The notes under the pieces: generated by a model
Told to the model about the DNA's origin: nothing
Databases searched by the model: none
Seen by the model: the letters and a program-made list of their open reading frames with translations, nothing else
Program-made: the position numbers and the translations under genes
Assembly (NCBI RefSeq): GCF_945952365.1
Contig: NZ_CAMFHX010000020.1
Span: 1-41,592 of the forward strand
Length of the DNA stretch: 41,592 nucleotides
DNA from: an uncultured Cetobacterium sp.
GTDB lineage: Bacteria > Fusobacteriota > Fusobacteriia > Fusobacteriales > Fusobacteriaceae
Direction of reading: 5' to 3'
Shown here: piece by piece, positions 5,175-41,592 of the stretch
How the letters are laid out: each line of letters opens with the position of its first letter
Position numbering within the stretch: position 1 is the stretch's first letter

Positions 5175-5203
5175 TAAAAAAAATGGGAGTCTTTACAGAC
5201 TCC
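5175..5203 (-). terminator. intrinsic terminator after the DUF4402 pair
   Basis: The minus strand shows GGAGTCT / AGACTCC (5186-5203) with a GTAA loop followed by CATTTTTTTTAG. It lies 13 bases past the stop of the second DUF4402 gene. Confidence 0.85.
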
Positions 5204-5215
5204 ACACTAATTTTA

Positions 5216-5635
5216 TTAATTATATCTTATTGCTGCTACTATTTCACCTTCATATACTCCAGCTGCTTGATTACTTGGCACTGTAATATGAACTTTCATA
5301 GGTAAAGTATTCAGTCCATTCGAATCCAATCTTCTAGATAAATCTCCATATTCAAGACTGTAATCTATTGTTATACTATTATCATTTTTATGTGTCAAAA
5401 CATTGTTTCTTTGAATGGCTACAAGAACCCATGCTCCACTTTCACCTTCTATTTCAAATGAGCTTTCAGCTGTTTTATATTCATTTCTTGTTAGCGCTCC
5501 TAATTCTATATCTCCATTTGATTTAATATTTAATGGACGAACTATCTCTGCATTTATTTTCATTGTAGCACTATGGTCACCTGCTAATACTGCTACTGAG
5601 CTCAAGATTCCTAGTATTAATGCTATTTTTTTCAT
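5216..5635 (-). CDS. DUF4402-type secreted protein (second of the pair)
   Basis: This small exported protein has 139 residues. A signal peptide (MKKIALILGILSSVAVLAG) is followed by a beta-rich domain that fits the DUF4402 pattern: xAEIVRPLNI, a short ELGAL segment, a middle region with FEIEGESGAW, and a closing GVYEGEIVAAIRYN. The molecular function of the family is not established; relatives look like small pilus-like or surface beta-sandwich proteins. GGAGGGAAAAG precedes the ATG. It lies 30 bases behind its paralogue at 5666-6088 and shares its transcript, so both should be controlled by the upstream c-di-GMP riboswitch. The two paralogues are quite divergent in the middle, so this is not a recent duplication. 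Confidence 0.8.
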   Translation of the reverse strand: MKKIALILGILSSVAVLAGDHSATMKINAEIVRPLNIKSNGDIELGALTRNEYKTAESSFEIEGESGAWVLVAIQRNNVLTHKNDNSITIDYSLEYGDLSRRLDSNGLNTLPMKVHITVPSNQAAGVYEGEIVAAIRYN

Positions 5636-5665
5636 CTTTTCCCTCCAATACTTAAAAAATATATT

Positions 5666-6088
5666 TTAATATTGAATTCTTGCAGTTATTGTTCCTTCAT
5701 AATCTCCAGCAACTGTAGCTAAAGTAGGATTTAAAGTTCCTGTAAGTGTGTGAGTTAAATTTCCACTTTCAGGAATAGTTGTTGGTATATTATCTAAACC
5801 AGCAAGATTTATAGCTAATGAATTATCTCCACTTGTTAACTCATCAATTTTAGATATAGTAAATTCAAAAGTTTCCCCTGGTTGTCCTGTTATAACATAA
5901 GTTCCTGTAGCTGTAGCTGTAGTTCCTTGGATTATATCTCCAAAAGCCATTGGTGTTGCATTAATAGTTAAAGGTGCTATAACTCTAGCAGTTACTTCCA
6001 TATCTGCAGATTTTTCCGTATTCCCTTGAGGAGCAGCAAAAGCTGTCATCGATAAAGTTAAAGATAATAAAGTTAATAATTTTTTCAT
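5666..6088 (-). CDS. DUF4402-type secreted protein (first of the pair)
   Basis: This 140-residue exported protein has a signal peptide ending AFA|AP, then a DUF4402-like domain: VTARVIAPLTINATPMAFGDIIQGT at the start (a typical PLTI ... FGDI pattern), an ITGQPGETFEFTI strand, and VAGDYEGTITARIQY at the end. It has no cysteines or membrane segment after the signal peptide. A strong ribosome site (AGGAGGGAACACT) precedes the ATG. The 5' leader carries a cyclic-di-GMP class I riboswitch and a terminator, so expression should depend on c-di-GMP. Role unknown; a surface or matrix component made in response to c-di-GMP is an inference from that control. Confidence 0.82.
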   Translation of the reverse strand: MKKLLTLLSLTLSMTAFAAPQGNTEKSADMEVTARVIAPLTINATPMAFGDIIQGTTATATGTYVITGQPGETFEFTISKIDELTSGDNSLAINLAGLDNIPTTIPESGNLTHTLTGTLNPTLATVAGDYEGTITARIQY

Positions 6089-6131
6089 AGTGTTCCCTCC
6101 TATTTTTTATATAAAGTTGTTTTGAAAATGC

Positions 6132-6178
6132 AAAAAAAACCAGTTGCAATTATCTTAAGAAGATAAAACTGCAACTGG
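6132..6178 (-). terminator. expression-platform terminator of the c-di-GMP riboswitch
   Basis: On the minus strand CCAGTTGCA (6170-6178) pairs with TGCAACTGG (6140-6148). An inner stem TTATCTT/AAGATAA completes the hairpin, and eight T follow (6132-6139). Its 5' arm includes the last conserved bases of the aptamer (GCCAG...TTGC), so aptamer and terminator cannot both form fully. This suggests that ligand binding blocks termination and turns the genes on; the direction is inferred. Confidence 0.85.
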
Positions 6179-6236
6179 CTGTCATTTTAAAGACCCTATA
6201 GCTTTGCGTCATAAAGTTTCCTTTATTTTGCCTTAT
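6165..6236 (-). promoter_or_regulatory. cyclic-di-GMP-I (GEMM-I) riboswitch aptamer
   Basis: The minus-strand RNA has the hallmarks of the GEMM-I class in order. GGCAAA is followed by a hairpin AUAAAG-GAAA-CUUUAU whose GAAA is the GNRA tetraloop that docks in this fold. Then come the most conserved run GACGCAAAGC, UAUAGGGUCU as the start of the second helix, and AUGACAGCCAG at the 3' side. It lies between a clear promoter and a terminator, about 80 bases ahead of two DUF4402 genes. The match to the conserved core is strong. The outer limits of the first helix are approximate. Confidence 0.93.
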
Positions 6237-6251
6237 TTATTTTATACAATA

Positions 6252-6280
6252 ATAATATATTAAAAAATAAAAAAAGTCAA
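6252..6280 (-). promoter_or_regulatory. sigma-70 promoter of the riboswitch/DUF4402 unit
   Basis: The minus strand has TTGACT (6275-6280) and TATTAT (6252-6257) with 17 bases between them. Transcription would start just before the aptamer, as expected for a riboswitch-controlled operon. The same -35/-10 pair with the same spacing occurs at 32743-32771. Confidence 0.8.
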
Positions 6281-22257: not shown

Positions 22258-22288
22258 AAAAGAGAGTGGCTTTAAACCACTCTCTTTT
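22258..22288. terminator. bidirectional intrinsic terminator
   Basis: AAAAGAGAGTGG pairs with CCACTCTCTTTT around a 7-base loop between the convergent genes at 21348 and 22287. The minus-strand read is followed by TTTCTTTTTT. Confidence 0.85.
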
Positions 22289-24365
22289 AAGTATTGCTAT
22301 TAAATAATCTTTCAAATTTCAACTCATTTTCTAAGAAAACCTTTACAATTTCTGGATCAAAACTTTTTCCACTTTCCTCTTTTATTATACTAATGGATTT
22401 ACGATGATCAAACCCTTCTTTATATACTCTTTTTTGTCTCAAGGCATCATACACATCTACAATCGAAACTATCCTAGCTTCTAAAGGAATCTCCTCACCT
22501 TTTAAGCCTTTCGGATAACCTTCTCCATTCCATTTTTCATGATGATATCTTGCTATATTTTCAGCCATCATACTGACACCAGATTTTTTTATTATTTCAT
22601 ATCCTATTTCTGGATGAGTTTTTATTACTTCAAACTCCTCTTCCGTAAGCTTTCCCGGCTTTTTTAAAACACTCCTATCAATCCCTATTTTTCCTACATC
22701 ATGTAACGAGGCAACGCTTCCTATCTCATCACAAAACTTTTTACTACACCCCATTTTATTAGCTAGTAGTTCAGAATACATATTCAATCTTTTTATATGA
22801 TTTCCTGTTTCAAAATCATTGAACTGATTCACAGCTTCTAACGACGATACTAACGACATCATTAAATCTTGATACTTCTTTTTTTCAGTTAAATCTTTTT
22901 TAGCCCTGTACATAAGTATCAAACTTATCAAAAACAGCCCTAATGAAACACCAACAAGTCTTTTATAGTCAGTAACTTCATAACTATTTTTTAACCAATA
23001 TATATTTTTAGTCATATTTTCATTCAAAAAACTTGCCGAAATCTCTTTTAACGCTTCGAAAAGTTCCTCTTCATCTTTACGAATAATCATCGACAAATCA
23101 TATTTTTTATCCAAAATACCCGCAATTTTCAACTCTTGATCATATCCGCTATTGTAAAGTTTATTTATTAATGTTTTATAATCTGCAATACTATAATCAG
23201 CTTCTTTTTTTCTAATTTTTTCAATCGCTTCGTCCATATCATTTACATAAATAAAATTTTCCTCTTTTAAACTTCTTCTAAGGTAATCCATATAATAGCT
23301 ATTATCAACTACAGCAAACCTTTCTTTCCTAGCTTCTATTAAATTAGTTATAAAACCATCTTCTTTTCTATTGAATATAACTGGAGTTAAAGTATAGTAA
23401 GGGTTTGTATAATGGTCTCCTCTTTCAATACTTGTTTCAACTGTTGCTGCTGCTGTTATATGATTCTCTTTCCAATCCTTACTATTTGTGTAAGTAACTT
23501 TATTCATTTTCAATCCTAAAATATCAGCAACGTCTGATAAATATTCAACCGTTAATCCTTTTTCTTTACCATCTTCATTATAGTATAGAGGATAATTACT
23601 TTTCTCTGCTGGAAACAGAACATCTACTTCTTTACCCTTCAAAGATTGATATCTACCTTTAAATTTATCTTTATAATACTCTCTTCTAGATTCACTAATC
23701 ATATTTTTCAAATCATCCGACGAGATATTTTCAAAATATTTTTTTAAATCCTCATATAGCTTTTTCTCACTTTTAGGAACAGCTAATGTTGTAACCATCG
23801 TAGGTATTCTATTCATATCTATTTTATTTAAGGTATCGATAAATCCATATTGATTATCTGCTACAAATCCTTCTATCTCTCCATTTTTGAGCATTTGTAC
23901 ACCTTTTTCTCTCGTTTCAATATCAATAATTTCACTATTTAAAAACTCATATTTTTCAGAAAACTCTTTGTCTATGTACGTTCCTTTTATAACTCCCACT
24001 CTTTTTTTATAGAAATTTGTTACATCTATATGCTGAGCATTTAAAAAGTACATATTAGCTTTTAAATAGAAAAACGTTGGAATAAAATAATACTTTTTTC
24101 TTCTCTCTTCTGTTTCAATTAAATCCATAATCAAAATATCTTTGCCTTTTTCCATATCTAATATTAGGTTCGTATCTAACTCTTTTACTCTCAAATTTAT
24201 ATCTCTTCTATTATATATATCTTGAAATATCTTGGGGTATAAGCCTTTATACTCACTTTGCTCTTTATAAAAGAAGAAACTATTTTCATTTTCCAACAAT
24301 ATCGTATGATCTTTCCCCATTAGACTACAGCATAATACGAAAGAAAACAGTAATACTTTCAACAT
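22287..24365 (-). CDS. HD-GYP domain protein with two periplasmic SBP-like sensor modules
   Basis: This is a membrane-bound signalling protein of 692 residues. After a signal-like N-terminus (MLKVLLFSFVLCCSLMG) come two regions resembling bacterial family 3 solute-binding domains, at about 20-225 and 245-465. A single membrane helix (VGVSLGLFLISLILMYRA, about 472-490) follows, then a short linker. The cytoplasmic HD-GYP domain shows HDVGKIGID, KTHPEIGYEI, RYHHEKWNGEGYPKGLKGEEIPLEARI and VDVYDALRQ. HD-GYP enzymes with these residues degrade cyclic-di-GMP. The periplasmic part probably binds a small molecule such as an amino acid and controls the enzyme. The window also has a c-di-GMP riboswitch (6165-6236). 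GGAGAAGAGAAAC precedes the ATG. Confidence 0.9.
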   Translation of the reverse strand: MLKVLLFSFVLCCSLMGKDHTILLENENSFFFYKEQSEYKGLYPKIFQDIYNRRDINLRVKELDTNLILDMEKGKDILIMDLIETEERRKKYYFIPTFFYLKANMYFLNAQHIDVTNFYKKRVGVIKGTYIDKEFSEKYEFLNSEIIDIETREKGVQMLKNGEIEGFVADNQYGFIDTLNKIDMNRIPTMVTTLAVPKSEKKLYEDLKKYFENISSDDLKNMISESRREYYKDKFKGRYQSLKGKEVDVLFPAEKSNYPLYYNEDGKEKGLTVEYLSDVADILGLKMNKVTYTNSKDWKENHITAAATVETSIERGDHYTNPYYTLTPVIFNRKEDGFITNLIEARKERFAVVDNSYYMDYLRRSLKEENFIYVNDMDEAIEKIRKKEADYSIADYKTLINKLYNSGYDQELKIAGILDKKYDLSMIIRKDEEELFEALKEISASFLNENMTKNIYWLKNSYEVTDYKRLVGVSLGLFLISLILMYRAKKDLTEKKKYQDLMMSLVSSLEAVNQFNDFETGNHIKRLNMYSELLANKMGCSKKFCDEIGSVASLHDVGKIGIDRSVLKKPGKLTEEEFEVIKTHPEIGYEIIKKSGVSMMAENIARYHHEKWNGEGYPKGLKGEEIPLEARIVSIVDVYDALRQKRVYKEGFDHRKSISIIKEESGKSFDPEIVKVFLENELKFERLFNSNT

Positions 24366-33847: not shown

Positions 33848-36800
33848 CTAGAATTTCCCAATTATATTTATGAACCATCCTTGTGTCTCATAATCTAAAT
33901 CTTTTCCACCGTTTTTATAACGCAAGTCTTTTAAATTATCATCAAACTTACTGAAGTTATACCCCACTCCAACTTGCATATTTTCATTTATATCTCTATA
34001 AACTCCAACCTGAGCACCATGCTTAACTTCATCTGTTTTTCTACTTTCTAATATATGATATTCTGCAAAAACATCCCATCTGTATATTATTTCATATGTC
34101 ATTCTCATCGAATACATATTTATTGTATTACTATGCCAATCTCCTCCAGAAACTAATCTTACTTTATCCTGTCTTATTGCATATTTTCCTGCCACAGTTA
34201 ATCTCTGAGTCCAATCATAAATAGCTTCTACTGTATATAAGTGAGCTTTAAAATTAAAGTCTGTTGAATCTCCTACAGTTCCAGATCCGTTTGTATCATA
34301 GATATAGTTCCATCTTGATATTAAATTTAACCTATCATTAAATACTGGTCTATAACCAAACCCTAACCCTAACTCGTAGAACTTATCATCACCATCAAAA
34401 GTTCTAGATAAGTACTCATTATTATCTTTCTTCAAAGTATAGCTATCACCATCTATTGAAACATAGTTAGCTTCTCCAAATATTGTATACTCTGGAGTTG
34501 GTTTCCATTTTGCGTTATTAATAAATGCCCAACTAGAAGATGACCTAGCTCCTGAATCTCTACCATACTCAAGTCTATGCTTTGAATATAGCTCTTCAGT
34601 TTCATATCTCAAGCTAGTTCCTAAATTATTTCTAGTTACTTTTCCATCTTCAATATCCACATCTCCTCTTTCATATAAGAATCCTAAGAAAATATTTTTT
34701 TCATATTCATAATCAACACCATAACCTTGCAACAATCCTTTTTCTGAATAATTTTTCATTATACTATTCTCTTGGAAAAGAGTTACTCTATCACTGTATA
34801 GGAATCTTTGTCCTATTGTTAAATCTTTAGTTGTATCATCTTCATTTTCATGTGTATAACCTGCATATATCTCATAATCAGGACTATACTTATAACCTAT
34901 AGTTACCTCTGCTGCTTCTCCTCTATTTCCGGTAGTTAAAGCACCTCCAAGTTCTAATTTCTCTGTAGGTGTATATTTTCCTCCAACGGTTATAGAATTA
35001 TTTGGTGCATACCCTTTGTCTCGCCAAACAGAAGATTGTAATTTTAAATATCCGTCTAGCTCTTCATTAAATTTATACCCAACTCTTGTACCTAAAAGAA
35101 CAGCCTCACCGTTATCTAAATCTTCACTGTTTAATGTTACTAATTCTGACTCATCCTCTTTTTCTTCTACATACTTAACTTCAAATCCAATATCTAATTT
35201 TTCTGTCACTTCTCTATTTATTCCTAAAGAAATCTCCTTTTGCTCTTGGAAACCTTCTTTTTTTCCGAGATCATCAAAATCAGTTTCTTTATATTTTGTA
35301 GCTTCTGTAAAGAGTAGAGTTTTCTCATTAATTTTATGCTCTGCTCTAAAACCAATCTCCTCTTTTTCTAAACCACTAGCCTCTGACGCTGTTGAGAATT
35401 CCTTATCTTTTCTAGAATACCAAAAAAGTAAATTGTCATCTAAATTAAACTTTTCACTATAATCACTTGGTGCTAAACTTGCCTCAATATAATAGGCTTG
35501 ACCTTTTCCATTTTCATTTATTATTGGTTGCTGAATAAAATCATAACCACCATTATATGAAAACCAATTTGAATCTTTAGTTAGCTGATTTCCTTCACTT
35601 TCCGAATATTCTCCTTTAATATACGTTCCATTAGATTTTTTCAGTGTTAAATCTGCACTTTTCAATTCATAGTCTGCTAATGAACCTTTTCTATTTTCTT
35701 TAACATAAGTTCCACCAACACCTATATTATCAGTTAGCCAAGTTTTACCTCTTCCACCTGCTGTTAAATTTGAAATATTATCTGCTGAAGAATAGAATTC
35801 ATAATCCGCTATTAAATAAATATTTTTTTCTCCTGATGGAGTATTTTTTACTATATCTGTATTTTTTTCTGAGAAGTAGTTTTGACTCAGAGGTTCTGAA
35901 AGAATAACTCTTCCCGACAGCTCATTTATTGTATAGTCTGCCCCTTCTGTTAGAGTTACTCTATCTAGAATTCTACCTGTTTTCTTATCTTTTATTTCTA
36001 TTGTTAACTTTGCACTTCCTATTACTATATCTCTTTCACTCAAAGCGTAAATACTTCCTCCAGTTCCCAAGAAAGAATCTCTTTTATAACTTGTGTCAGG
36101 ATTAGCTGCAAAGACTTCTATGTGGTGTTTCGATTCTCCAAATGGATTTATCTCCAAACTATTGTATTCACCTCTAGCTCCATAAAGACTACGATTATAA
36201 TTATTAAAGAATCCTGAATCTAAACCTGTTTCATAGTTCCCCCATAAAACTTGAGATTTATCCCAATCAACTCTTAAATACGCCTTACCCTCAGTTTCAA
36301 CATCATAATAACGCTCTGATTCATCTCCATAGTCAAACGGTAAATACTGTCTATCGAGCTTTCTAAAAATAGCATTTTTATCTCTCATATGGAAATCACT
36401 AAACATATTTTTTATTTCATCTTCCCAAGTATCAGCTTGAGCTGTTATTTTATACTTATCTTTTATTCCTTTATAATAAAAAGCTAGTCTTCCAGTATTA
36501 TAGTAACTCTCTCTAAAATCTGGATCATTTTGAAGAATTGAATCACTTCCAGATATTCTATTGTTCCCTAAAGTAAAGTCTGCTAAAGCTACTAAATACT
36601 CATAATCTTTAACTGTTTCTACTTCTATCGGATAGTGTTTATGCTTTCCATCCTTTTCAATTTCAAAATTATATACTTTTGAAGTTTCATCTGAAACAGT
36701 TTCATAAATAAAATCTCCTGTCGAGTCTAACTCAATATTTTGATTATCAATTTTTACTATTGATTTTGGATCAATATCCCTACCGTAGAATCTAATTTTA

Positions 36801-37564
36801 GATCCTACGATGGGTATATTTTGTAAAGCCAAATCATTTGTTCCATAGACTTTCTCTTTTATTGAGCTATCATCTTCATTTAATTTACTTATTACCATAT
36901 CATTTAAATTTAGTGTCTTTATATCTGTTTCATCATAAGTTCCATTTTCACCATAAACTCTAAGAACATAATATAGTTTATTTACATTCTTTAAGTTTTG
37001 ATTTTTTGAAACTAAACCATCCCATACTATTGGAGTATTAAAATCTATTCTCTCTCCAATTACTTTTCCTATAGGATTTCTTCTTAATACATCCCCTTCT
37101 TTATATATTAGCAGTTCATAACTTTTAATACTTTTATCATAGTTTGTATATGTATAGAAAACAACCTCTTCTTTTATATTCCCCATTCCGTCAACCAAAA
37201 CATATGGTTTCGTAAGTATATTCAATCTTGGATCTACTGCTACTGGATCTACTATACTATAGATAACACCTCTTCTATTTTCTAAAAAAGCTCTACCTTT
37301 ATATGTTAAATCCTCTGTTTCTGGTAAACGACTCTCTTTAACAAAAGGTGAATCAAGTTCCAGTTTCTGGAACTCAACACCTCTTACATTTTCTTCTGAA
37401 TCACTCCATTTTTCATTTTGTAAATTTTGAGTTGATACTGTTTCAATTATTTCATACTCTTCAAAAGAGTTTGGAGGTTCAATTACTTGAGCACTTGCTG
37501 TTGTTATTATAAGTCCTAGTAAAATCAAACATATACTCCAATTACTTTGTAAGTGATTACTCAT
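33848..37564 (-). CDS. Large outer-membrane beta-barrel protein of a DUF11-associated operon
   Basis: This 1238-residue exported protein has a signal peptide ending TTASA|QV. About 350 residues of periplasmic strand-rich domains follow (one with KSYELLIYKEGDV ... TPIVWDG like a FlgD/Ig-type fold). The middle region contains YDVETEGKAYLRVDWDKSQ, NRSLYGARGEYNS, GTGGSIYALSERDIVIGS and GRVILSEPLSQNYFS. From about residue 590 to the end it is a succession of amphipathic strands with many aromatic girdle residues (YKYSPDYEIYAGYTHE, GVGYNFSKF), ending in a terminal Phe (FINIIGKF), the usual outer-membrane insertion signal. This suits a barrel of very many strands. Its ATG directly follows the stop of the DUF11 gene, with AAAGGAGG inside that gene, so the two are translationally coupled. 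Its function is not known. Confidence 0.8.
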   Translation of the reverse strand: MSNHLQSNWSICLILLGLIITTASAQVIEPPNSFEEYEIIETVSTQNLQNEKWSDSEENVRGVEFQKLELDSPFVKESRLPETEDLTYKGRAFLENRRGVIYSIVDPVAVDPRLNILTKPYVLVDGMGNIKEEVVFYTYTNYDKSIKSYELLIYKEGDVLRRNPIGKVIGERIDFNTPIVWDGLVSKNQNLKNVNKLYYVLRVYGENGTYDETDIKTLNLNDMVISKLNEDDSSIKEKVYGTNDLALQNIPIVGSKIRFYGRDIDPKSIVKIDNQNIELDSTGDFIYETVSDETSKVYNFEIEKDGKHKHYPIEVETVKDYEYLVALADFTLGNNRISGSDSILQNDPDFRESYYNTGRLAFYYKGIKDKYKITAQADTWEDEIKNMFSDFHMRDKNAIFRKLDRQYLPFDYGDESERYYDVETEGKAYLRVDWDKSQVLWGNYETGLDSGFFNNYNRSLYGARGEYNSLEINPFGESKHHIEVFAANPDTSYKRDSFLGTGGSIYALSERDIVIGSAKLTIEIKDKKTGRILDRVTLTEGADYTINELSGRVILSEPLSQNYFSEKNTDIVKNTPSGEKNIYLIADYEFYSSADNISNLTAGGRGKTWLTDNIGVGGTYVKENRKGSLADYELKSADLTLKKSNGTYIKGEYSESEGNQLTKDSNWFSYNGGYDFIQQPIINENGKGQAYYIEASLAPSDYSEKFNLDDNLLFWYSRKDKEFSTASEASGLEKEEIGFRAEHKINEKTLLFTEATKYKETDFDDLGKKEGFQEQKEISLGINREVTEKLDIGFEVKYVEEKEDESELVTLNSEDLDNGEAVLLGTRVGYKFNEELDGYLKLQSSVWRDKGYAPNNSITVGGKYTPTEKLELGGALTTGNRGEAAEVTIGYKYSPDYEIYAGYTHENEDDTTKDLTIGQRFLYSDRVTLFQENSIMKNYSEKGLLQGYGVDYEYEKNIFLGFLYERGDVDIEDGKVTRNNLGTSLRYETEELYSKHRLEYGRDSGARSSSSWAFINNAKWKPTPEYTIFGEANYVSIDGDSYTLKKDNNEYLSRTFDGDDKFYELGLGFGYRPVFNDRLNLISRWNYIYDTNGSGTVGDSTDFNFKAHLYTVEAIYDWTQRLTVAGKYAIRQDKVRLVSGGDWHSNTINMYSMRMTYEIIYRWDVFAEYHILESRKTDEVKHGAQVGVYRDINENMQVGVGYNFSKFDDNLKDLRYKNGGKDLDYETQGWFINIIGKF

Positions 37565-40500
37565 CTATATCGCCTCCTTTTTGCTTTGAATAAATTGAAC
37601 TTTTACTTTTTCATCACTCAAATACTCTTTTAAAGCTTTCAACAACTCTTGTTTTCTCTTTTCATCTAACTCTTTATTATCGCTTCTATTTAATTCAACT
37701 AATAAATGATCTTTAGATTTTAACTTTTTCATAATTTCACTAAAAACATCTTTATAGACAACAGGCTTTATTTCTGACGAATTTTCATAGAATAAGATTC
37801 CTGGGAAAACTCTAACTCTCAGTAATTTTGTTCCATCCTGTTTTGTTTCGTAAGTTGTTCTAGGTAAAACTACTCCAAAGTTATATTTGATCATCGTTGT
37901 TCCCAATCTTTGAACTTTTGGATTTTCTGTTGTAAATATGCTTCCGATAGGTAATGTTGTTGCATCAACTTTTAAAATATAATTTTTACCTTTTTTATCA
38001 GAAACTTCCGGTATATGGAATCTTCCATATTGATCTGTTATTATTACCAATCCTTCAACATTAGCAACTCTTACTCCTGGAATCCCCTCCTCTATTAATC
38101 CTGTGTTTATTATAGTTATCTTTTGATAATATTTAATTTTATTATCTCTATTTTTATTAGTAGCTTTTTTAAGTATTTGTCTTCTTAAGACGATATTTTG
38201 CGATACCATACCTTTAGCTTTTAAGCCCGTATGATTAGTTATAACTCTATTATCTTTTGTTAGAGTTATATCTGTTCCTTCTGCTGTGGTAACTCTAATA
38301 TCTCCTAAGTTTGAAACATCATTTAATCCTGTGTAAATTTCAACTTTGCTCTTCTCTAAATCTTCTCTTTCACTCATTCTACCATGTAGAATCTCTTTTA
38401 ACTTTATTCCTCTTTCTAAAGGAACACTCTGGTCTTTAATAGCTTTTGTAATCCCATCAACTATATAGTATGTGCTATTTGGAACATATAAATTTTCTGG
38501 AATATCTTGTTTTATTGATATACCTGTTGCTCTATTGTCATCTTGAATTCCGTCTCCATCTCTATCATGGAATACTTTTCCAATTACAGTTGTTGTTTCA
38601 AACAATGGATCTTCAACTACATCAACTTCTGCTGCATCTTCGTTTGAAACTGGTTTTCCTGATGTATTCGTTACAACTGCTACGTTTTTATAAGTTCCTC
38701 TTACCACTCCAATCGATACTTTTGTTAAATAAACCACTTCAATTTGTTCTTTACTTTCTAAATCGAATGGTCCAATAACAATTGTATTTCCTTCGTAAGT
38801 AACATCAATAGTTCCAACTTTCTCTCCATTTTTGATTATTCCTAAAGAATCCTCAATATATTTGAATCCAGCTGGCGGTGTATCTTTTATGTAAAGATTT
38901 TTAATCGGCTGACTTTCGTTATTTGTAATTACTAAACTATAAGGTACAAATTTACCGATTGATGTTTCTTTTACTCCTGCCTCTTTATCTATTGATACTA
39001 AAGGTTTTTTAACTTTTACCTCTGCTTCTGCTTCTATTTCAGGTAATCCAACAATAGCTACTTTAGCTATATTTCTAACTTTTTGTACATTTAAATCTAA
39101 TGATGTTTTAGCTTTAATTGTATAAGTTAACGTTTCACCTGGAGCTATTTCTGCATCCGTAATATTTAAGTTAATATTTGGACCCGGAATAGTTCCTATT
39201 AGTGAATTAGGTCCTGCAACTCCTGTTATAGACCAACTTGTATAAGCTGGTATCTTTGATCCACTATTCGATAACTCTGTCATTTCAGATATGTTATCTA
39301 TTACAGTGAAGTTTAATGCTCTTGTCGATCCACTATTCTTAACTTTTATAATGTACTCTACCTCTTCACCTAATAAAACTTGGTCTTGAGTTGCTACTTT
39401 CGTTAGTTCTAGTTGCATAGCTTTTCCAACTACATCGGCGATATCACTTACAGGTATATCTAAATCATATCCACCATCATTTTGTTGATCATAATTTGCT
39501 GATGCTGTATTCGTTATTTTTTCACCACTTTTTAACGAAACATTATTTTTTACAGTTGCTTTTATTTTTACTACCGCTTCTGTATTTATTCTTGATATTT
39601 TGATTTCAGAAGTTGAACCATTTATATCTCCAGTGTAAGCTATATCACTTTCACCTTCTTTTACAGAAACTATTTTAATTGTTTCTGGATCAAATAATAC
39701 CTCTCCTAACTCATTTTTAATCTCAGAAACCTTATCAATCAACTGTACATTAAATACTATTTTGTCTGTTTTTAATTTAATTGTGTATGTTACCTCTTCG
39801 CCATTTACAATTTTATCATCAGATTCTAACTGGGTAAGTACAGTTTTTTCTATAGCTATCACTGGTTTTCTTGGAGTTGACGTCACTTCAGATTCTAAGT
39901 TTTTATCTTCTCCAAAACCATCTTGACTTAAAATTTTAGCTTTAGCTATATTTACTATACTACCAACTATCGAATCTTTAACTTGAACTTCTATTATATA
40001 AGTTATTTTTGATTTTGGTTTCATATCTAACTTATCTACTATATTTCCTTGAGCCGTTTCAATCGGTGTAACTCTTACTGAATTTTCTGGTTCAATTAAT
40101 CTAGTTATAGTCGATTCTGACTCAAACGGATAAACCATTTCTCCTAAGTTATTTAGAGATCTAATATCGTTAATTATGTCCGTACCTTCAATTCCTATTA
40201 GATTATTATCACCTAAATTTTCTAAAACTACTGTATAAACTAACTTTTCTGAAGGATTAAACTCTTTTAAATCAACTGTTTTAGTCAATGTAACTTCTGG
40301 TATTTTTGCAAATACTTTTACTTTTGTTTCAATAACCTCTTCTTTTTCCCCAACTTTAATGCTTAAAATAGCTTTATTTTCTATTATAGATACTGCTTCT
40401 GTCGACACTCTTATTTTTGCAATAAATGTAATTGTGCTTCCATTTTTTATATCTATCTCAGCTTTTAAATTTGGACTGTCTTCTAATATTGTAATTGAGT

Positions 40501-41592
40501 TTTCAGAGTTTGAAGATATATACTCAATTGATAAAGTTCCGTCTTCAAATGCTGCTCCTAAGTCTCCATTTGGATACAATTTAGTTTGAACTTCTGTAAA
40601 CATATCCGTTAATTTTGCATTTCTAATCCATCCATCTCCATTATTACTTACAACTATAGTGTATTCAACCTCTTCTCCTGGAGAATATAGATATGTTGAT
40701 GTATTTGGTAATAATGTTTTCGTTTTAACTGTTTTTGTCAATCCAAGAAGCCCAATTTTTCCAGTTGAAACAGCTTGTTTTACTATCTCTTTTTCTACTA
40801 TTCCACCTTCTCCTTGCTCAGTATACTTACCTATCGCTGTATTCACTAGCGTTCCAAATACATTAGGTTTTGTTTGCGCCGATAACTTCAATACTACTTC
40901 ATCTCCAACTCCTAAATCTAGTATCGCTTTATATGTATCTCCTTCACTTGAGTCTTTAACTAACTCCTCTTTTAACACCGATGTTACTGGTATTTCTAAA
41001 GAAACTCTTTGCCAAGATACAAATGCTAAGCCTGTCGATGAGCTCTCTCCTGCTATCTCTCCTACAATTTTTCCAATTTCATCAGTTAATACAAAGTTTG
41101 GTATTATTGATAACCCTGGGTTTTTCATTCTTATTGTGTATTCTAATGTATCTCCTGAGTTATATTCTGCTTTATCTACAACTTTTGTTAATTCTGGTAT
41201 AGATTGAGCACTTTTAATAGTTGCTTCTCTTTCATAACTCTCTTTTCCATCTGGATAACTAAATGATGCTATATTTTTTATATCACCATATATGTTACTT
41301 TCTGCTATTCCTTTAATTTCTATTATTATTTTTGTAGCTTTCCCTATATCTACTACTACATCTGGTATATTCATACCATCTTCTAAAATCAATAGACTTT
41401 CTATATTAGAGTTTTCTACATCTCCTTCTACTCTTGATGTTATCTTCCATCCTGGTTTAAAGGCTGGTGTAGTTCCTCCTCCAACTTTGTCTGCTACAAT
41501 ATTAGCTATAAAATCTCTCAATGTAATATTATTAGCCACATTTTCAGTAGAGATATTCTCTAGTACAACTCTAAATCCAATCTCTCCATTTG
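37565..41592 (-). CDS. DUF11-repeat surface protein, 5' end outside window
   Basis: A very long repeat protein, 1341 residues visible. The frame is open to the window edge (NGEIGFRVVLENIS is read before the internal GTG at 41539), so the true start is outside. At least six DUF11/Ig-like repeats are seen, each with a LTKTV-type strand, a G(E/D)xVxYTI strand and an N-x-G turn (for example GEEVEYTIVVSNNGDGWIRN and GEEVEYIIKVKNSGSTRALN). After them come a calcium-type loop GKVFHDRDGDGIQDDN, a linker, a SdrB/carboxypeptidase-like domain (ITDQYGRFHIPEVSDKKGKNYILKVDATTLPIG), and a C-terminal FYENSSEIKPVVYKDVFSEI that resembles a worn OmpA-like domain without its GHTD loop. It precedes the barrel gene with no spacing (stop TAG, then ATG). 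A cell-surface or periplasm-spanning partner of the barrel is inferred. Confidence 0.82.
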   Translation of the reverse strand, partial: NGEIGFRVVLENISTENVANNITLRDFIANIVADKVGGGTTPAFKPGWKITSRVEGDVENSNIESLLILEDGMNIPDVVVDIGKATKIIIEIKGIAESNIYGDIKNIASFSYPDGKESYEREATIKSAQSIPELTKVVDKAEYNSGDTLEYTIRMKNPGLSIIPNFVLTDEIGKIVGEIAGESSSTGLAFVSWQRVSLEIPVTSVLKEELVKDSSEGDTYKAILDLGVGDEVVLKLSAQTKPNVFGTLVNTAIGKYTEQGEGGIVEKEIVKQAVSTGKIGLLGLTKTVKTKTLLPNTSTYLYSPGEEVEYTIVVSNNGDGWIRNAKLTDMFTEVQTKLYPNGDLGAAFEDGTLSIEYISSNSENSITILEDSPNLKAEIDIKNGSTITFIAKIRVSTEAVSIIENKAILSIKVGEKEEVIETKVKVFAKIPEVTLTKTVDLKEFNPSEKLVYTVVLENLGDNNLIGIEGTDIINDIRSLNNLGEMVYPFESESTITRLIEPENSVRVTPIETAQGNIVDKLDMKPKSKITYIIEVQVKDSIVGSIVNIAKAKILSQDGFGEDKNLESEVTSTPRKPVIAIEKTVLTQLESDDKIVNGEEVTYTIKLKTDKIVFNVQLIDKVSEIKNELGEVLFDPETIKIVSVKEGESDIAYTGDINGSTSEIKISRINTEAVVKIKATVKNNVSLKSGEKITNTASANYDQQNDGGYDLDIPVSDIADVVGKAMQLELTKVATQDQVLLGEEVEYIIKVKNSGSTRALNFTVIDNISEMTELSNSGSKIPAYTSWSITGVAGPNSLIGTIPGPNINLNITDAEIAPGETLTYTIKAKTSLDLNVQKVRNIAKVAIVGLPEIEAEAEVKVKKPLVSIDKEAGVKETSIGKFVPYSLVITNNESQPIKNLYIKDTPPAGFKYIEDSLGIIKNGEKVGTIDVTYEGNTIVIGPFDLESKEQIEVVYLTKVSIGVVRGTYKNVAVVTNTSGKPVSNEDAAEVDVVEDPLFETTTVIGKVFHDRDGDGIQDDNRATGISIKQDIPENLYVPNSTYYIVDGITKAIKDQSVPLERGIKLKEILHGRMSEREDLEKSKVEIYTGLNDVSNLGDIRVTTAEGTDITLTKDNRVITNHTGLKAKGMVSQNIVLRRQILKKATNKNRDNKIKYYQKITIINTGLIEEGIPGVRVANVEGLVIITDQYGRFHIPEVSDKKGKNYILKVDATTLPIGSIFTTENPKVQRLGTTMIKYNFGVVLPRTTYETKQDGTKLLRVRVFPGILFYENSSEIKPVVYKDVFSEIMKKLKSKDHLLVELNRSDNKELDEKRKQELLKALKEYLSDEKVKVQFIQSKKEAI

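Follow-up and report, generated by a model that had tools for sequence, protein, structure and literature searches.

The window analysed here is the whole stretch of 41,592 nucleotides from an uncultured Cetobacterium sp. On its minus strand it carries a two-gene unit with a c-di-GMP-I riboswitch and its expression platform in the 5′ leader, on the same strand as the genes and ahead of gene 1. The features, in the order of transcription, are as follows.

6252–6280, minus strand: sigma-70-type promoter, TTGACT-17-TATTAT, with 10 of 12 consensus bases.
6167–6242, minus strand: c-di-GMP-I (GEMM-I) aptamer, RF01051, complete (cmscan, 64.3 bits, E 1.8e-10).
6131–6179, minus strand: intrinsic terminator, a stem from 6179 to 6139 followed by a T-run, the 5′ arm being aptamer bases 6179–6167.
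6095–6101, minus strand: ribosome-binding site AGGAGGG of gene 1, read from the sequence.
5666–6088, minus strand: gene 1 (P0002), 140 aa, predicted secreted, pilin-like and DUF4402-like, below the Pfam cutoff alone.
5216–5635, minus strand: gene 2 (P0001), 139 aa, predicted secreted DUF4402 protein of the pilin family, with a Pfam match.
5186–5203, minus strand: terminator closing the two-gene unit, GGAGTCT-GTAA-AGACTCC with a T-rich tail, read from the sequence.

The first-pass annotation of this DNA had reported a GEMM-I aptamer with a GAAA tetraloop and a core sequence, and had proposed a covariance-model search as a check. With the Rfam c-di-GMP-I model this search was positive, matching the model over its full length (positions 1–87 of 87) at 64.3 bits vs the curated cutoff of 35 bits; the GAAA tetraloop and the GACGCAAAGC core lie within the match, and all core bases are intact. 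Relatives were sampled from 98 Fusobacteriota genomes, in which 144 aptamer neighbourhoods were read. At the ligand-specificity position, where the cGAMP class has A, G is kept in the window and at 143 of the 144 sites; the column taken to be G20 was assigned by our own alignment to the structure numbering. The predicted ligand is c-di-GMP.

Nine bases separate the end of the promoter from the start of the aptamer match. The score of this promoter is by itself at chance level in AT-rich DNA (7 found vs 7.9 expected), but the earlier call is backed by the other copies of the aptamer. Promoters of 10–11 out of 12 bases precede three of the four other copies in this genome, with an identical −35 hexamer and 17-base spacing ahead of riboswitches 2 and 4 (listed below), and over all sites the best upstream promoter reached 10–12 out of 12 at 61 sites vs 6 in shuffles. 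A further structured RNA, RAGATH-18 (RF03064, an Rfam sRNA family), lies at 614–682 on the plus strand of the window, at 62.9 bits.

The terminator (−20.3 kcal/mol, with a T7 tail after the stem) was claimed by the first-pass annotation to overlap the 3′ end of the aptamer in an ON-type layout, and this is borne out. The aptamer 3′ strand GCCAGUUGCAGUU is the 5′ arm of the terminator, its downstream partner strand being AAUUGCAACUGG, and the two structures have 13 nt in common (6167–6179), including the putative ligand-pairing C. Because of this sharing, the aptamer and the terminator are expected to exclude each other. The leader fold is more stable than all 200 shuffles (z = −3.85). An overlapping terminator was observed at 98 of the 144 sites and at 10 of 144 after shuffling of the downstream DNA, and a chance hairpin is therefore rejected. 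Among the 88 overlap-type sites in the Fusobacteriota, the C at −4 from the aptamer end pairs with a terminator G in all 84 scored cases; by our own alignment to the structure numbering, we take it to be the ligand-pairing C. Covarying aptamer/terminator pairs are seen across the sites, at −7 (T-A, C-G, G-C) and at −2 (C-G, G-C, A-T, T-A). Once the terminator is complete, the static fold is strongly in its favour (−30.4 kcal/mol), and any switching would therefore need to be kinetic. The same exclusion architecture is found in the published pilM ON switch, in which the aptamer and terminator are mutually exclusive and the terminator sequesters the 3′ strand and the ligand-pairing C75 (PMC9262584); here too, the terminator takes up the aptamer 3′ strand with the putative ligand-pairing C. 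The layout thus supports a transcriptional ON switch.

The two genes had been described as encoding two DUF4402 proteins. This holds for gene 2, which is above the Pfam DUF4402 (PF14352) gathering cutoff (33.6 vs 25.2 bits), and not for gene 1, which misses it (23.4 vs 25.2 bits) and is placed in the same family by its fold and by a fusobacterial profile that has gene 1 among its own inputs. Both genes start with a signal-peptide-like stretch, and an N-terminal extension follows in the sequence, ahead of an Ig-like fold in the model. Searches of sequence profiles against PDB sequences were weak (the top match of the pilin profile was CsuE, E 0.09, and the usher profile gave only a weak, SdrD-like match), and structure comparison was therefore used. 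The AlphaFold model of gene 1, built from 52 fusobacterial relatives, has a pLDDT of 88.8, and its top solved structures in Foldseek are CsuA/B, FimG, FimA, Caf1, PapH, and PapA (best E 2e-3, TM 0.57). The top 18 fold matches are all chaperone-usher subunits, with many similar Ig-like folds scoring nearby. NCBIfam named no pilin or usher above its cutoffs. On these models, the DUF4402 proteins look like chaperone-usher pilin subunits. The earlier guess, that they belong with adhesion or surface structures, is sharpened in this direction by the fold and by the operon neighbours in this genome and its relatives.

The genome (2.5 Mb in 61 contigs, 98.7 % complete) contains five copies of the aptamer, including that in the window, with 87 % mean column identity and different flanks. 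In all five, the 5′ arm of the terminator overlaps the aptamer, by 6–13 nt. The copies lead the following genes.

Riboswitch 1, window: the two-gene pilin pair.
Riboswitch 2, C32: an operon for HD-GYP, solute-binding, two-domain pilin, usher, MORN, and chaperone proteins.
Riboswitch 3: a 97-aa MarR-type regulator (annotated from its relative).
Riboswitch 4: a further pilin of the window pilin family (P0003).
Riboswitch 5, L009 7355–7430, minus strand: an HTH regulator, then a giant DUF11 repeat protein.

No chaperone or usher gene adjoins the two window genes. The first gene of the C32 operon encodes an HD-GYP protein whose periplasmic sensor is of the solute-binding kind. The genes after it encode, in this order, another solute-binding protein, a protein of two domains, an usher, a protein with MORN repeats, and a chaperone of the PapD type. 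The two-domain protein (279 aa) has a DUF4402-like pilin domain at its C-terminus, as in tip adhesins. The AlphaFold model of the usher (871 aa, pLDDT 79.6) has the N domain, the large barrel with plug, and the C domains of an usher, and matches FimD/PapC with E values down to 4e-24 in Foldseek; the Pfam usher family PF00577 matches neither this protein nor the ushers of the relatives, which indicates a divergent usher. For the chaperone (P0009), direct hmmscan of the protein gave PapD_N at 27.2 vs a cutoff of 23 bits, which is preferred over a PapD_N scan of the whole genome (G000) that found none; operons of relatives also carry PapD_N. The genome has matches to 12 GGDEF, 6 EAL, and 3 HD-GYP domains, and can therefore make and break c-di-GMP.

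Related genes are found elsewhere in the genome. Close upstream of riboswitch 5, and separated from it by a redoxin gene, is a second usher (C18:14034–16574; L009 7981–10629, minus strand) with a pilin-like neighbour. A second HD-GYP gene with a solute-binding sensor, like the first gene of C32, is at 22287–24365 (minus strand) in the window and has no riboswitch ahead. Also in the window, 33848–41539 (minus strand) encodes a large DUF11 repeat protein (37565–41539), then a 1238-aa protein without a Pfam match; both are likely to be surface proteins.

In the relatives, where gene calls were greedy ORF picks and families were BLAST clusters, RF01051 was found in 37 of the 98 genomes, all within the window's own family, Fusobacteriaceae; the 37 genomes from other families of the phylum yielded no match. 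The sites are not independent, the genomes being related. The first-pass annotation had proposed looking for this aptamer at the DUF4402 genes of relatives, and it is indeed common there: among 64 DUF4402 matches in 25 genomes, 24 have RF01051 on their own strand at most 700 bp upstream, where 0.03 would be expected, and 44 at most 6 kb upstream, where 0.26 would be expected. For 20 of the 64 DUF4402 matches, and likewise for 59 of 88 usher-like genes, the 6–7 kb upstream contain no riboswitch. Of the 144 riboswitches, 60, in 25 genomes, stand ahead of genes for pilins, chaperones, or ushers, and at chaperone-usher sites 52 of the 55 detectable terminators overlap the aptamer (ON type). In the Fusobacterium mortiferum lineage the pilin, HD-GYP, two-domain pilin, usher, MORN, and chaperone genes form one operon behind one riboswitch; in Cetobacterium, the pilins are apart from the usher operon and have their own copies of the switch. 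It is mainly because of this joint operon that the window pilins are linked to the C32 machinery. In nine genomes, one of them with the site L007 7074–7149 (minus strand), the same riboswitch also stands ahead of a gene for a MarR-type regulator of 96–112 aa. The terminator overlaps the aptamer in all eight cases in which one was found, and this regulator may extend the reach of c-di-GMP control.

Three alternatives bear on the riboswitch itself. It could be argued that the aptamer answers to 3′,3′-cGAMP (GEMM-Ib) instead of c-di-GMP, as the pilM switch of identical layout senses cGAMP and such switches were originally annotated as c-di-GMP-sensing (PMC9262584). A G20A change lets a class I aptamer accept cGAMP (PMC6274999), but the specificity G is retained in the window and at nearly every other site, and the genome encodes the c-di-GMP enzyme domains counted above; the cGAMP class is rejected, and this ligand is very unlikely. 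An OFF switch, in which bound ligand favours termination, has a precedent in Clostridium difficile Cd1 (PMC9262584) and a parallel in other Fusobacteriaceae: of 24 sites ahead of c-di-GMP enzymes, 14 have the terminator apart from the aptamer, as in the OFF layout. Such sites precede GGDEF/HD-GYP sensor genes at L114, L132, L136, L139, and L150 (genomes G041, G054, and G059), with the terminator ~8–40 nt downstream. The OFF design, however, needs the bound aptamer and the terminator to coexist, as they do in Cd1 (PMC9262584), whereas here they share a strand; an OFF switch is rejected as highly improbable. That the riboswitch is a decayed or chance structure without function is scarcely credible, given the strength of the Rfam match, the intact core, the covarying terminators, and the conservation of the five genome copies in the aptamer, yet not in their flanks.

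The identity of the proteins leaves more room for doubt. The riboswitch may be real and the DUF4402 proteins free periplasmic or surface beta-sandwich proteins, merely co-regulated with pili: the gene pair stands without a neighbouring chaperone or usher, the Foldseek support for a pilin is an E of only 2e-3 with TM ~0.5 and many Ig-like folds close in score, and DUF4402 is uncharacterised, with no mention in the open-licence literature searched. This is nonetheless unlikely, as the best 18 fold matches are chaperone-usher subunits throughout, family members sit within usher/chaperone operons in many genomes, and in the 279-aa operon protein this domain follows another one at the C-terminus, an arrangement like that of tip adhesins. 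The extension ahead of the fold, a low-confidence part of the model, suits the role of a donor strand.

The favoured reading, with a probability of roughly 0.8, is that a two-gene pilin cassette is governed by a transcriptional ON riboswitch for c-di-GMP, and that this cassette supplies pilins to the C32 chaperone and usher, themselves under a second copy of the switch, with feedback by HD-GYP. RNA polymerase would start near 6245 and transcribe the aptamer first. With c-di-GMP bound, GCCAGUUGCAGUU would be held in the aptamer fold, the terminator blocked, and genes 1 and 2 transcribed; without ligand, GCCAGUUGCAGUU would pair with the downstream AAUUGCAACUGG and transcription would end. The products, as pilin subunits, would be exported and passed to the C32 chaperone and usher, the operon for which would run under riboswitch 2. 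The HD-GYP phosphodiesterase, encoded by the first C32 gene, should lower c-di-GMP again, a negative feedback. Pilus assembly, an adhesive function, and the feedback are putative steps. Shared control and the operons of relatives point to the C32 usher as the one used by the window pilins, the second usher at C18 also being present. As a whole, the data are best read as a chaperone-usher pilus regulon, dispersed and activated by c-di-GMP, that Cetobacterium has in common with other Fusobacteriaceae, and these bacteria probably turn on pili at high c-di-GMP. Cetobacterium is a common genus of the fish gut, and a c-di-GMP-switched pilus in it is a natural candidate for gut attachment.

Several known systems resemble parts of this arrangement. 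The archaic Csu pilus of Acinetobacter baumannii has a similar pilin fold, with CsuA/B as the top PDB match, as well as a chaperone, an usher, and a two-domain tip subunit; it differs in sequence (~15 % identity), and the usher here is unrecognised by the Pfam usher family. We know of no riboswitch for the Csu pilus of A. baumannii. Geobacter metallireducens pilM (GEMM-Ib) shares the aptamer family, ON switching, and a terminator that takes the 3′ strand with the ligand-pairing C (PMC9262584), but its ligand is cGAMP and its targets are genes for conductive (type IV) pili, whereas the window has chaperone-usher-type pilins. In C. difficile, Cdi-2-4 is likewise a c-di-GMP ON riboswitch ahead of a pilin gene, pilA1, although of an unrelated aptamer class (c-di-GMP-II) and for type IV pili, according to a review (PMC6366702). 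For the gammaproteobacterium Aeromonas hydrophila, the same review notes putative fimbrial genes preceded by c-di-GMP riboswitches; the passage leaves the fimbrial family unstated and describes no dispersed regulon or in-operon phosphodiesterase (PMC6366702).

The riboswitch class, ON switching by such a layout, and c-di-GMP control of pili are thus already known. What appears to be new, as far as the literature searched goes, is the occurrence in the Fusobacteriota, the family of divergent ushers, the interpretation of DUF4402 as pilins, the dispersal of the regulon, and an operon that opens with the phosphodiesterase gene; among the open-licence papers searched, no title or abstract joins chaperone-usher pili with a c-di-GMP-I riboswitch. 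DUF4402 gains a testable role as chaperone-usher pilins, and such pili would be placed in the Fusobacteriota, which the published distribution of archaic chaperone-usher systems leaves out (PMC4654587). The regulon would also provide a set of direct c-di-GMP targets in a phylum for which the literature searched describes almost none.

Outside the phylum, an usher-profile scan of the genomes of 84,980 species found 14 loci; this was a search with one peptide pattern, its query taken from aptamer-linked ushers, and is not a census. The matches are in Cetobacterium, Fusobacterium, one Psychromonas locus, and three Glaciecola loci. RF01051 lies upstream of the usher in all four Psychromonas and Glaciecola loci, with three copies in tandem in Psychromonas. 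This pairing suggests that module and control move together between phyla. A tentative generalization, for which the odds are somewhat short of even, is a cross-phylum module of an usher operon and unlinked pilin cassettes, each with its own c-di-GMP-I ON switch, in which a solute-sensing HD-GYP closes the loop, c-di-GMP sets both pilus making and subunit choice, and DUF4402 is a chaperone-usher pilin family. The terminators in Psychromonas and Glaciecola are mostly without aptamer overlap, the ON layout being that seen in Fusobacteriota sites. In the two of these loci that were examined (L164 and L168), the PapD-type chaperone comes first.
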